Positions 50,590 through 55,043 of a DNA stretch of 64,000 nt are shown here, one piece after another; positions within the stretch are counted from its first letter, which is position 1; every line of letters begins with the position of its first letter. Source of the stretch: Rikenellaceae bacterium (GTDB lineage: Bacteria > Bacteroidota > Bacteroidia > Bacteroidales > Rikenellaceae); contig SUZF01000006.1 in the NCBI GenBank assembly GCA_015060065.1, positions 30,207-94,206 on the forward strand. Reading direction: 5' to 3'. The translations under genes were made by a program, and so were the position numbers. A model generated the notes under the pieces. That model searched no databases. It saw nothing but the letters and a program-made list of their open reading frames with translations, and had not been told where the DNA came from.

Positions 50590-50990
50590 GGTTTTTTGTG
50601 AATTTTGTGTTTTTTGGGGAGGGCTGGAACGCCGAGGAGAATGGGGAAAATGAGGAGAATGAGGAGAATGGGGATAGTGGGGATAGTGGGGGCGCGGTCT
50701 GCGACCGCTTATGGGGAATTGATAATTGATAATTGACAATTGATAATTGACAATTGATAATTGATAATTAAGCGGCTGATGGCTAATTTAGTAGAGTATA
50801 GAGAGTTTAAGGAGTTGGGGGTCGATTCCCTAAATTCCCCAGTGTCCCCAGTGTCCCCAGTTTCCCCAGTGTCCCCATAAGCGACCTTGGTCGCGCTCCC
50901 CATATCCCCCATAAGCGGTCGCAGACCGCGTCCCCAGCGTCCCCAGTTTCCCCATAAGCAATCTTTGATTGCGCCCCCATTCTCCCTATT
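50590..50990. repeat. REP-like hairpin cluster A (family 1, 4 hairpins)
   Basis: Hairpin cores: 50688-50715 (-, GCGGTC/GACCGC), 50873-50901 (+, GCGACC/GGTCGC), 50907-50935 (+, GCGGTC/GACCGC), 50950-50978 (+, GCAATC/GATTGC), embedded in CCCCAGTGT/GGGGAGAAT minisatellite. Confidence 0.85.
50716..50772. repeat. AT-rich minisatellite
   Basis: Tandem (G)AATTGATAATTGACAATTGATAATT units. Confidence 0.75.
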
Positions 50991-51016
50991 CTCCCCATCC
51001 TCTCTTATAGCCATTG

Positions 51017-51061
51017 ACCCCTCCGGTCTTCGACCACCTCCCCTAAAACAGGGGAGGAGTT
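51017..51061 (-). repeat. Dispersed hairpin repeat family 2, copy 2
   Basis: On -: AACTCCTCCCCTGTTTTAGGGGAGGTGGTCGAAGACCGGAGGGGT. Confidence 0.75.
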
Positions 51062-51258: not shown

Positions 51259-53169
51259 ATGAAAAAATTCAGACTTTTGCTGATGATGTTGTTGGCTGCT
51301 GCTGTATCGTTCACAGCCTGCAACAATGGCGGTGAGGAAGTTACTCCCACCGATCCGAATGATCCTACCGTTGTCGTAACTCTTGACGAGGAGGAACTCT
51401 ATCCCGACGCATTTATGGCGAAGGTGGTTACCACCAATGCCGAGAAGGCTGCTTGGACGGTTGTTGCTCACGATGAGCCTGTTGTTGTTGCCAATGTTTT
51501 GGCAGAGGGTGTTCAGATTCCCGCAGGCGAACTTAACAATGCCGAGGTTCCCGCATTGGTTCTCGCCGAGGATTTGACGCCCGCTACTGCTTATGACCTC
51601 TACGTTGCTGTTGAGGGTAATGGCAAGCAGGTATTGAGCGCACCTCTCTGCGTTACCACTGCCGAGGCAGAGGCTCTTGGCTCGGTTGTCGAGTTCTATG
51701 TTGATAACTCTATGGGCGGAGGTAACGTAACCGTTGGAGGTATGTCGATGATGGATTATGGCAGTAAACCCGGTCAATACATCATGATCGATGCCTATGG
51801 AGAAGATGGTGAGACCCTTGAATATTCTGCCAAGTTGATAATGTTTGACTATGATTATGCGGACTTTGGATGCACGAGTTATTCGTATCTGACTGGTCAC
51901 CACTATCCCGTTGTTGCAGGAAGCCTTGATATGGGTCCGCTCCCGACTACAAGTGCATTGATGGCAGATCCGGGTTATACCAACTTTACCGTTAAGGGCA
52001 AGACTTATTTCCCCGTAGTTCCCACAGCCGAGGCTGATGCAGAGGGTAATCCTTACGGCGTTACCGTGACAACCATGGTTCCTTATGGTCAGGATTTGAA
52101 TATGCTCGAATTCAACCTGCCGGTTATCGATGAAGATAATAACGAGTATGTTCTCGTTGGTTCATATATAGGTCCTGTGGGCTATCAGTTGTCGAAACCG
52201 AAATATCCGTTTGACCTCGAAGAGTGGGGCTATACCGAGTACGTGGCAACACAGGAGGGTAGCATCATCACTCTTACATGCGATACTTACCAGGGTAAGT
52301 TTGAGATGGCATTCGATATCTCGCACAATGATAACGTATTTGCAGCCGAGGCTGATGCAGAGCAAGGTGTTACTTATATTGCCGGCGAGGATTGCAACTG
52401 GTCTGGTTACTACTTTATACCCGGATTGGACGAGGCTACTTATTACTTCAATGAGGGTAGCCGTATTGCACTGTTCAAGACCGAGACAGAAGGTGAGTAT
52501 CGTATCTCTGTGGGTCGTACCTTGGAGGGTACTGGCTCTTCTTGGACTATGTCGTCAGAGTCTTCGTCCTATGATTATGAGGTGCCTCTTGGTGACTACA
52601 CTATCAAAGTAACCGGACTGGGGGGGGGCTCTGATACTCCCGCAACAGAGGCTTACTCGCTTATCAGCACCGTAGAGAATCTTACCGCAGGTACCTATTA
52701 TATGGCTGCGTATGCGGCTGCTAAGAACGACGGAACTTCGTTGGAGCCTTATGTATATCAAGTGTTTAGTGGCAATGCTGGTACTAGTAGCGGTAAAACA
52801 GATCTTTATACTTCGGGCTATGAGTATGCTAATGGCGATTTGACTCTTGACCCTTCTAGCTCCAACTATCCCGCAGTCGATGTGGTGCTCGAAGCAGTTG
52901 AAGGTCAGGCTAACCAATACTATGTGAAGAATACCAAAGATAACAAATATCTTGCATCGTCTTCGACTGCTAATCGACAGTTGGCATTGCAAGACGAGCC
53001 GTTTGCTTGGACCGTATCTAACCACGCTAATGGAGGTGTAGCTTTGGTAGGCGGAGGCGTAATGTGCGGATCTGCAAGCGCTTCTTCAAAGTTTATTCGT
53101 TCATATGTAAATGATGAGAATAATGTTGCTAATGTTAAGTTCGGTCTGTACTTCTTCAAGAAGAACTAA
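51259..53169 (+). CDS. Hypothetical surface lipoprotein with internal poly-G tract
   Basis: 636 aa; lipobox SFTAC; Fn3-like LTPATAYDLYVAVEGNGKQV; G9 tract at 52620-52628 encodes the GLGGGS linker. Confidence 0.75.
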   Translation: MKKFRLLLMMLLAAAVSFTACNNGGEEVTPTDPNDPTVVVTLDEEELYPDAFMAKVVTTNAEKAAWTVVAHDEPVVVANVLAEGVQIPAGELNNAEVPALVLAEDLTPATAYDLYVAVEGNGKQVLSAPLCVTTAEAEALGSVVEFYVDNSMGGGNVTVGGMSMMDYGSKPGQYIMIDAYGEDGETLEYSAKLIMFDYDYADFGCTSYSYLTGHHYPVVAGSLDMGPLPTTSALMADPGYTNFTVKGKTYFPVVPTAEADAEGNPYGVTVTTMVPYGQDLNMLEFNLPVIDEDNNEYVLVGSYIGPVGYQLSKPKYPFDLEEWGYTEYVATQEGSIITLTCDTYQGKFEMAFDISHNDNVFAAEADAEQGVTYIAGEDCNWSGYYFIPGLDEATYYFNEGSRIALFKTETEGEYRISVGRTLEGTGSSWTMSSESSSYDYEVPLGDYTIKVTGLGGGSDTPATEAYSLISTVENLTAGTYYMAAYAAAKNDGTSLEPYVYQVFSGNAGTSSGKTDLYTSGYEYANGDLTLDPSSSNYPAVDVVLEAVEGQANQYYVKNTKDNKYLASSSTANRQLALQDEPFAWTVSNHANGGVALVGGGVMCGSASASSKFIRSYVNDENNVANVKFGLYFFKKN

Positions 53170-53194: not shown

Positions 53195-53226
53195 GGCGCA
53201 GACTTTTCGGTCTGCGCCTTTTTTTT
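53195..53226 (+). terminator. Intrinsic terminator
   Basis: GGCGCAGAC-ttttcg-GTCTGCGCC followed by T8. Confidence 0.88.
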
Positions 53227-53370
53227 GGCAGATGGGTTGGATGGGTTGGATGGAGATTGTGGGGGCGCGGTCTGCGACCGCTTATGGGAAGAGTGGGGAG
53301 CGCGACCAAGGTCGCTTATGGGGATTTTTTTGAGCATAGTCATTCTCCCCAATATTCCTAGCGTCCCCGG
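53225..53370. repeat. REP-like hairpin cluster B (family 1, 2 hairpins)
   Basis: 53261-53288 (-, GCGGTC/GACCGC) and 53295-53323 (-, GCGACC/GGTCGC); starts with GATGGGTTG repeats. Confidence 0.85.
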
Positions 53371-53378
53371 TCTAAAAA

Positions 53379-53927
53379 CTAATGCTTATTGCGAAAATCA
53401 AGGCGTGCCTTGGTAAGACTCTCACGAAAACCGCCATTCTTGACGAAGATATTATACTGATATTGGATATATCGAGAAAGCAACATATCTGCTTGATGTA
53501 TCAATACAATCGCCATATTGGATATTACCTCGTCACTACGGCTCTGCGCAAGGGCAAGGAAATATTCACTATCATCGTGTTCCCGACCAAGTTTGCGCAT
53601 TGCTTTAACCTCGGCAGAGTCATTTGCCCACATCCGCAAATTGCGCACTCGCAGATAGTCTTCGTAATCAGCCAGTAACTCGTGTAAACTCGCTCGTGCC
53701 ACATTCAATAGTTTTAGAAGCGTTTCGGAAGAGGTTGCGGCAGCTTCGGTTGCCTCGATGATATTCTGCTTACCCGACCGTGCGGCTTGTACCATTTGGT
53801 CTATGGTACGGTCACCGCGTTTGAGATATTTCTCACAAAAATAGTATGTAATGTCGTAGATTATCTCGGCCTTGCGATAAGCAATCAATGAGCGATAACC
53901 ACCGGTGTATGAAACCAAATCTTTCAT
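53379..53927 (-). CDS. Four helix bundle protein (23S rRNA IVS/S23-like) with suffix domain
   Basis: Start at MKDLVSYTGGYRSLIAYRKAEIIYDITYYFCEKYLKRGDRTIDQMVQAARSGKQNIIEATEA; C-terminal FVKNGGFRESLTKARLDFRNK. Confidence 0.85.
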   Translation of the reverse strand: MKDLVSYTGGYRSLIAYRKAEIIYDITYYFCEKYLKRGDRTIDQMVQAARSGKQNIIEATEAAATSSETLLKLLNVARASLHELLADYEDYLRVRNLRMWANDSAEVKAMRKLGREHDDSEYFLALAQSRSDEVISNMAIVLIHQADMLLSRYIQYQYNIFVKNGGFRESLTKARLDFRNKH

Positions 53928-53969
53928 ATTAGCAAATTTAGCACAAAATTTCTCATTACACAACTTTGG

Positions 53970-54237
53970 GAGAAGTTTTTTGGGTGAATTTTATGGGTTT
54001 TGGGGAGAATGGGGAGAATGGGGGCGCAATCAGAGATTGCTTATGGGGGATATGGGGAGCGCTCCCTGTGGGAGCTTATGGGGATTTTGTTAAAAATGGT
54101 CATTTTCCCCAATGTCCCCAATGTCCCCAGTCTCCCCAGTTTCCCCAGTTTCCCCAGTCTTCCCCATAAGCGGTCGCAGACCGCGTCCCCACTATCCCCA
54201 TTCTCCCCACTATCCCCATTCTCCCTAACCGCCACCT
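53970..54237. repeat. REP-like hairpin cluster C (family 1, 3 hairpins)
   Basis: 54020-54048 (-, GCAATC/GATTGC), 54054-54083 (-, GCTCCC/GGGAGC), 54162-54190 (+, GCGGTC/GACCGC). Confidence 0.85.
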
Positions 54238-54243
54238 GCCCAC

Positions 54244-54275
54244 AAAAAAAAGGAGTCTTCTTGCGAAAACTCCTT
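54244..54275 (-). terminator. Terminator downstream of fabG
   Basis: AAGGAGT-cttcttgcgaaa-ACTCCTT with a T-run on -. Confidence 0.6.
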
Positions 54276-54296: not shown

Positions 54297-55043
54297 TTAG
54301 CAGTTCATACCGCCACAGCAGTTGATGACCTGACCACTCACATACGATGCAAGGTCGCTGGCGAGGAATAATGCCACCTTGGCAACCTCCTCTGTTGTGC
54401 CACCGCGACGCAACGGAATCTTCGTATTCCACTCCTCGCGCACGCTTTCGGGGAGTTTGTCCGTCATCTCGGTAATGATAAAGCCCGGAGCGATGCAGTT
54501 GGCACGGATGCCGCGTGAGCCCATCTCCTTGGCGATAGATTTTGCCAGACCAATCATGCCGGCCTTCGATGCCGAGTAGTTGCACTGACCTGCATTGCCA
54601 CTCACGCCAACAACCGACGATATGTTGATAATCGAGCCTCCGCGCTGACGTGCCATTGAGGGTACGCAGGCGTGGATAAAGTTGAATGCCGATTTGAGAT
54701 TGACGGTAAGCACCGCATCCCACTGCTCCTCGCTCATACGCATCATAAGACCATCCTTCGTGATACCGGCATTATTGACCAGTACGTCAATCTTGCCGAA
54801 GTCAGCCAAAATCTGCTCAACAACAGCGTGTGTCTGCGCAAAATCGGCAGCATTGGATGCGTAGCCTTTGCACTTAACACCGAGTGCTGCAATCTCTGCC
54901 TCGGTGGTCTCCATAACCTCATTGCGATTCAAATCCGTGAAAGCGATGTCGGCTCCATTCTTTGCCAATTCGAGGGCAATGGCCTTGCCTATACCTCGTG
55001 CCGCACCCGTTACGAGTGCAACCTTATTTTCCAAAAGTTTCAT
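54297..55043 (-). CDS. fabG: 3-oxoacyl-[acyl-carrier-protein] reductase
   Basis: 248 aa; VTGAARGIGKAIALELAKNGADI, NNAGITKDGLMMRM, YSASKAGMIGLAKSIAKE. Confidence 0.93.
   Translation of the reverse strand: MKLLENKVALVTGAARGIGKAIALELAKNGADIAFTDLNRNEVMETTEAEIAALGVKCKGYASNAADFAQTHAVVEQILADFGKIDVLVNNAGITKDGLMMRMSEEQWDAVLTVNLKSAFNFIHACVPSMARQRGGSIINISSVVGVSGNAGQCNYSASKAGMIGLAKSIAKEMGSRGIRANCIAPGFIITEMTDKLPESVREEWNTKIPLRRGGTTEEVAKVALFLASDLASYVSGQVINCCGGMNC

Follow-up and report, generated by a model that had tools for sequence, protein, structure and literature searches.

A four-helix-bundle gene framed by short tandem-repeat arrays and hairpins in a Bacteroidales genome: a probable mobile element, with similarly framed genes in several phyla

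The window, i.e. the whole stretch of 64,000 nucleotides that was analysed, lies on contig 9 of a Bacteroidales MAG (1.86 Mb, 92% complete; hereafter the host genome, G000), which was examined by pattern search and in selected stretches. The window carries a gene framed by two repeat clusters, B and C (Table 1), and situated between convergent neighbours: a lipoprotein-like gene whose end is at 53169, and fabG (54297-55043, minus strand). The intrinsic terminators of both neighbours border this cassette and the arrays start immediately inside them. The gene matches the TIGR04258 profile (2.2e-18; 65.9 bits for a cut-off of 40) and, with 24.3 bits for a cut-off of 24, TIGR02436; the score of its product against Pfam PF05635 (22.3 bits) is under the cut-off of 33.8. 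Cluster B ends within 3 nt of the stop codon and cluster C starts some 70 nt from the ATG, which agrees with the earlier note on this DNA, where a four-helix-bundle gene bracketed by hairpin clusters had been described.

The AF2 model of the protein (pLDDT 91) consists of a four-helix bundle and C-terminal suffix helices. A Foldseek search with this model returned 2GSC and 2RLD as top matches (probability 1.0; TM at most 0.82 by target length), with E-values above 0.05, as is usual with helical bundles, so that the predicted structure meets the criterion of a four-helix bundle like 2GSC and 2RLD. Only the fold search gave matches, for the PDB searched by sequence with the protein returned none, and no recognised recombinase, nuclease or reverse transcriptase (RT) domain was found in it. 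The protein family is basic (median pI 8.8). The Xanthomonas S23p structure (2GSC) is a toroidal homopentamer, according to PMC4990558, and the element protein is probably pentameric likewise; only the monomer was modelled.

Table 1. Features of the cassette, its borders and the neighbouring orphan array (window positions)
Feature	Position	Strand	Remarks
Orphan gene-less array, same family as the window cassette	50616..51000		hairpins 50694-50716, 50907-50929 and 50950-50972; nested AATTGATAATTG array
Intrinsic terminator of the upstream lipoprotein gene	53195..53226	+	from sequence; array begins right past the T-run
Cluster B	about 53233..53375	+	G-rich array, two hairpins, central loop, short C-rich arm; cassette 3-prime end
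B hairpin 1	53266..53281 (C9:83472-83487)		GCGGTC-TGC-GACCGC type
B hairpin 2	53302..53315	+	GCGACC-AA-GGTCGC then TTATGGGG
TIGR04258 four-helix-bundle suffix protein, element-encoded	53379..53927	-	182 aa, pI 8.85; profile match, AF2 model
Cluster C	about 53999..54237		palindromic array: G-rich arm, loop, C-rich arm with 9-nt TGGGGNNNN units; cassette 5-prime end
C hairpin 1	54026..54048	+	GCAATC-AGA-GATTGC TTATGGGG
C hairpin 2	54061..54083	+	GCTCCC-TGT-GGGAGC TTATGGGG
C hairpin 3	54162..54184	-	GCGGTC-TGC-GACCGC TTATGGGG
Intrinsic terminator of fabG	54244..54275	-	from sequence and locus L140; abuts the other cassette edge

Both clusters are built of a TGGGG core every 9 nt, with a variable linker of 4 nt. 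Most cores are spaced by 9 nt (90 cases); in 25 cases the spacing is 25 nt with a hairpin in between, the unit reading TGGGG-GC-stem-loop-stem-TTA-TGGGG. Each cluster comprises a G-rich and a C-rich arm with a loop between them, and is therefore itself palindromic, and the two clusters share direct repeats of 60-62 nt (80% and 71%) together with an inverted repeat of 47 nt (87%). Another hairpin element, CCTCCCCTGTTTTAGGGGAGGTGGTCGAAGACCGGAGGGGT, recurs with its reverse complement nested in many TGGGG arrays of the host genome (window 51015-51060; loci L195, L199, L200, L203 and L208).

Using a pattern that combines the hairpin with TTATGGGG without demanding pairing (GCN11GCTTATGGGG), we found 43 matches in the host genome, nearly all forming a stem, versus none with the reversed control pattern. 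The 40 other congeneric genomes, which are incomplete MAGs, gave two matches in total, both unpaired and ascribed to chance. None came from G031. This genome, the nearest relative that was found (88% identity at fabG), is without the window gene (gene 1), and both of its TIGR04258 matches belong to the type of gene 2, a second paralog in the host genome that has a different motif (ATGGCAT) and hairpins of its own. The stems in the host genome vary (GGTC/GACC, AATC/GATT, AGTC/GACT, TCCC/GGGA, AGCC/GGCT) and covary, with 93.8% of the cells paired, 15 compensatory cases and an observed score that was reached in none of 500 shuffles. The arrays and hairpins around the gene are a real pattern, confirmed to lie far beyond chance.

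Hairpins as abundant in genomes lacking the gene would have spoken against the earlier note. They are essentially missing in the gene-less congeners, but several genomes that have no TIGR04258 gene contain TTTAGGGA arrays, so that the match between presence and absence is imperfect for some motif families. AATTGATAATTG arrays persist in the host genome, where a visible cognate gene is absent. For both families gene loss or some gene-independent maintenance must be assumed, and where no cognate gene is visible in a genome, their arrays are best read, though this is unproven, as relics. AATGGCAT is mostly limited to gene carriers or to genomes with structured relics. In the genome G030 (L210-L229), a second array family, TAAGGTCGGG, alternates with TTTAGGGA arrays; it has a hairpin, GCGCCTTCGGCGGC, and the stretch GGGTTTAGCACAACGGTTGCAAGTGGGGCC, which is conserved.

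Three array sites of the host genome could be compared with G031 over both flanks. At one of them (L198/L257) a 180-bp array directly follows a conserved terminator, and its place in G031 is taken by 27 unrelated bases; at the other two (L191/L237 and L200/L236) the TGGGG arrays are missing in G031, and older AATTGTGAATTG or AATTGATAATTG arrays are common to both genomes. The AATTGATAATTGACAATT and AATTGTGAATTG arrays, being common to the two genomes, are therefore older; their cognate gene is not visible in the host genome (window 50716-50780; L191, L192, L200). For the window cassette itself no clean empty site was found, because synteny past fabG differs even in G031. The empty sites by which the earlier note had meant its cassette to be judged thus exist for arrays, and at the operon junctions described below, but not in clean form for the whole of B, gene and C.

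The gene-2 cassette is one 708-bp unit common to two unrelated loci, located between nadE- and pepT-like genes in the host genome and between ddl- and DUF3109-like genes in G031 (the names of these neighbours were inferred from sequence). The 708-bp match is bounded by the outermost motifs, and the flanking DNA is unrelated. At the site where one genome has the intact cassette, the other has a broken copy, and vice versa (L035, L055). Between the two intact copies of gene 2, Ka is 0.033 and Ks 0.675, which indicates selection for a functional protein even as the loci turn over; judged from these substitutions, purifying selection acts on a related member of the family.

Intrinsic terminators pointing inward were found at 19 of 41 and 15 of 44 array edges in the two genomes tested, versus 39 of 664 and 12 of 649 random windows. 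Inward terminators clearly outnumbered outward ones in the host genome (19 versus 7), and not clearly in G030 (15 versus 12). Since the random windows include coding DNA, targeting of terminators cannot be separated from mere tolerance of intergenic sites.

TIGR04258 is patchily distributed (12 of 36 other congeners). In the flanks of the 26 loci that were read, most genes proved to be framed by a short motif of their own, among them CTAAAGGG, TGATGGG, CTATGGG, TTACGGGG, CTTAAGG, GTAACGGC, GGGATAATA and TTAGGGA. When 79 suffix genes (from congener loci and 80 named genome contigs) were compared with 387 other ORFs of those loci, an 8-mer common to both flanks, with at least two copies in each, was found for 24 of the former versus 4 of the latter, and the best 8-mer count reached at least four in 43/79 versus 35/387 (p = 1e-23). 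Suffix-type genes of Planctomycetes, Verrucomicrobia, Chlorobi and other MAGs often have arrays as well. By these exact-k-mer counts, which overlook degenerate arrays, nearly half of the suffix genes have weak arrays or none, and some loci, e.g. L053, L071, L083 and L104, have no array at all. With near-duplicates removed, flank similarity rose from 0.08 at less than 50% protein identity to 0.31 at 70-93% (Mantel p = 0.0002); in a fuller set it was 0.31 at 70-80% protein identity, versus about 0.11 for DNA 1 kb away up to 80%. By this comparison, the flank motif tracks the protein, not the host.

Suffix-less S23 genes (TIGR02436) are also framed by arrays, in which the motif typically reads forward on the upstream side and in reverse on the downstream side. 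Examples of such motifs are AATTCAC, AATTCAAA, GTGAAAAG, AATTAGT and AACAATGTAC in Bacteroidales, an AATTCAC array being seen around an S23 gene in another congener (L280). On named plasmids, S23 arrays occur in Bernardetia (TTAGTGA, 16 copies), Treponema saccharophilum, Planktothrix (CGTAAAT), Nostoc (AATTCGT), N. edaphicum (GGGAGTA), Anabaena sp. 90 (AGGTGAC) and Calothrix brevissima (AGGGTGT). For 14 of the 18 S23 genes of the plasmid set, versus 1 of 48 controls (p = 5e-9), the two flanks had a 7-mer in common in at least two copies, in inverted orientation 13 times versus 4 times direct. The association of repeats with TIGR04258 and TIGR02436 genes elsewhere, on which the earlier note had staked its proposal, is thus strong in both sets, and most of the TIGR04258 and S23/IVP genes examined have 7-10-nt arrays of their own on either side, often in inverted orientation, in Bacteroidota, Cyanobacteria, Spirochaetota and others.

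Three operon junctions were found both occupied, in cyanobacterial plasmids, and empty, in relatives. The cas2/cas1 junction has a gap of 2 bp in Nostoc UHCC 0870; in Anabaena cylindrica PCC 7122 and Nostoc TCL26-01 it is occupied by an S23 cassette whose arrays have the motif GTAAAAA. The nrdB/nrdA junction has a gap of 40 bp in Calothrix NIES-4105, and in N. edaphicum a cassette with the ends GGGAGTA...TACTCCC. The cas6/cas4 junction has a gap of 23 bp in Nostoc UHCC 0302, and in Anabaena sp. 90 the two genes are separated by 777 bp that contain AGGTGAC arrays together with an S23 gene. None of these empty junctions contains arrays, which implies that array and gene arrive together. CRISPR-cas operons on cyanobacterial plasmids are repeatedly broken by S23 cassettes, at cas2/cas1, cas6/cas4 and cas10/cmr3 (L293, L294, L300, L305, L306). 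In different host backgrounds, four-helix genes also have helicase or DUF1156 genes on one side and DNA methylase or HEPN genes on the other (L295, L297, L298), possibly a defence-type operon setting in which the four-helix gene may be resident.

Taken at the level of genome comparison, these data demonstrate a discrete unit with empty and occupied sites, dispersal only in the gene-bearing genome, and co-divergence of protein and motif. We propose, as the probable explanation, that B, the gene and C form an autonomous selfish mobile element, the protein of which recognises its own arrays, and that the orphan arrays are gene-less derivatives. The termini of such elements would be arrays of a family-specific motif of 7-10 nt, here TGGGGNNNN, and in suffix-type elements the hairpins would be interspersed in the arrays and bounded by the identical motif. 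The sole gene would encode a basic four-helix protein of the S23/IVP type, probably pentameric, which we infer, in the absence of binding data, to recognise its cognate motif and hairpins specifically, as nucleic acid. A ring oligomer facing an evenly spaced core with free linkers suggests, again by inference, multivalent recognition of single-stranded or extruded repeats. The protein would be needed for the copying or insertion of the cassette and of orphan arrays into new intergenic sites, a role that is inferred too, and insertion would often occur beside terminators or within short gaps of operons, the orphan arrays being the non-autonomous offspring of the gene-bearing cassette. The chemistry would probably come from host enzymes, in which case the protein may guide those of replication and repair, or else from an activity that the protein itself has and that has gone unrecognised. 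The possible repeat/protein cassette of the earlier note is therefore supported by the repeat enrichment, the near-absence of the hairpins from gene-less congeners, the empty sites and the 708-bp cassette at two loci, but its suggestion that the protein binds or moves the repeats is still an inference: mobility is established by comparison, without any binding or transposition experiment.

The regular 9-nt spacing of the conserved core, with its variable linkers, would equally suit multivalent binding by the oligomer of a sequence-specific RNA- or DNA-binding regulator (a TRAP-like ring), the arrays being its operator or regulon sites and mobility being due to something else. The basic character of the family fits this explanation, as does the translational role proposed for TAACTGA arrays just 5' of start codons (MacGregor 2015, PMC4679880). 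We nevertheless consider it unlikely, because many arrays in the genus adjoin terminators and not start codons, arrays and gene enter operons and unrelated loci as a unit, and the gene comes and goes among the congeners (12/36). It is somewhat less plausible, and in our opinion quite unlikely, that the arrays are ordinary repeats produced by slippage or gene conversion, into which the four-helix gene inserts as a passenger. The highly variable array length, the excess of gene-less over gene-bearing arrays and the nesting of several motif families within one another could be so explained, but a passenger would leave arrays at the empty site and the empty operon junctions have none; moreover, every gene has its own motif, which goes with the protein and not the host, and the pattern is missing in control ORFs.

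Arrays are frequently located 3' of intrinsic terminators, a position that recalls group IIC introns. One RVT_1 gene is present in the host genome, and Avd (4DWL), a protein of diversity-generating retroelements, is homologous to PF05635 proteins of the four-helix fold family such as 2GSC (PMC10053308), so that the protein could be imagined to load, like Avd, array RNA onto a trans-acting reverse transcriptase. This we judge very improbable: the window cassette has no RT, RT is usually missing from the host genome of such genes, and RVT_1 had no match in nine of the twelve TIGR04258-positive congeners, 91-95% complete ones included, on which ground an obligatory RT partner was rejected. As to the earlier note's comparison with RAYT/REP, it stands as an analogy only. 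The cassette does resemble REPtrons in having short palindromes of one family that are dispersed in the genome and flank a partner gene. Mobilisation of the hairpins by a Y1 (HUH) tyrosine transposase, to which the four-helix gene would be incidental, is however practically ruled out, since PF01797 was found in none of 41 genomes, host included, versus 5 of 14 control genomes, the repeats are arrays of 9-nt tandem units, and their invariant 3-prime tag is TTATGGGG, not GTAG or CGTC; membership in the REP/RAYT group was rejected accordingly. With no Y1 transposase in the 41 genomes and RVT_1 missing in 9/12, neither a RAYT nor an obligatory RT accounts for the spread.

The mobile element that we favour, in which the protein reads its own arrays, resembles the intervening sequences (IVSs) of 23S rRNA in having a single S23/IVP-family ORF inside terminal inverted repeats. 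The 428-nt IVS of Coxiella burnetii (PMC4990558) ends in inverted repeats of 28 bp, and three heptamers immediately precede its S23p ORF; this is the same plan as that of the array cassettes, published but, in the accessible part of that paper, not generalised. Terminal inverted repeats around an S23p-family ORF are present in the window (the 47-nt, 87% repeat of B and C), as are inverted arrays in most S23 genes, whereas location in a 23S rRNA gene is not: the IVS sits in helix 45 of 23S rRNA and is cut out by RNase III, and the window cassette is intergenic, between the lipoprotein gene and fabG. The present element differs further by its long arrays, hairpins and many gene-less copies, and by purifying selection on gene 2, in contrast to the ORF of the Coxiella IVS, which is decaying. 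Among array-framed elements, the IVSs of 23S rRNA look like a single specialised case.

Eukaryotic foldback (FB/TU) transposons have long inverted termini of short tandem repeats. Their termini are similar to those of the present element, from which they differ in domain of life and protein, with no sequence relation. Dispersed intergenic heptamer arrays have been reported, with their origin unexplained, in Beggiatoaceae, Cyanobacteria and Bacteroidetes (TAACTGA, PMC4679880), and as GGGAATC or GGGGA(T/C)T in Xanthomonas and Nostoc (PMC4692102). The arrays that surround cyanobacterial S23 genes, such as GGGAGTA and AGGTGAC, look like these and like the cyanobacterial STRR. The terms four helix and S23 are absent from both papers, whereas here the framed gene is identified and empty sites are documented. 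No open-licence paper linking such arrays to four-helix or S23 genes, and none on TIGR02436, was found; subscription papers were outside the search, so that priority is uncertain. We rate the class as a new kind of mobile element, of which the rRNA IVS would be the one described, specialised example.

How the short tandem heptamer arrays of several phyla arose and spread had been left without a mechanism, and the S23/IVP proteins without a known function. Tying each array family to a cognate S23-type gene, with empty sites and co-divergence, turns two puzzles into one testable system. This may be a new class of mobile elements without a recognised transposase, inserting between operon genes, including those for CRISPR adaptation, and array-framed genes in several phyla may explain the source of puzzling bacterial repeats. 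A broader proposal, to which we would give an even chance, is that S23/IVP proteins define a phylum-crossing mobile class with gene-specific array termini, in which the protein would be an unrecognised recombination or transposition factor reading the arrays, and of which the 23S rRNA IVSs and the heptamer and STRR arrays of Cyanobacteria, Bacteroidota, Xanthomonas and Beggiatoaceae would be members or debris. At three loci (L078, L084, L294) the arrays continue into coding sequence, as seen in the tails of suffix-gene proteins (e.g. GTNGTNGT) and in a cas1 3-prime end lengthened by the repeat.
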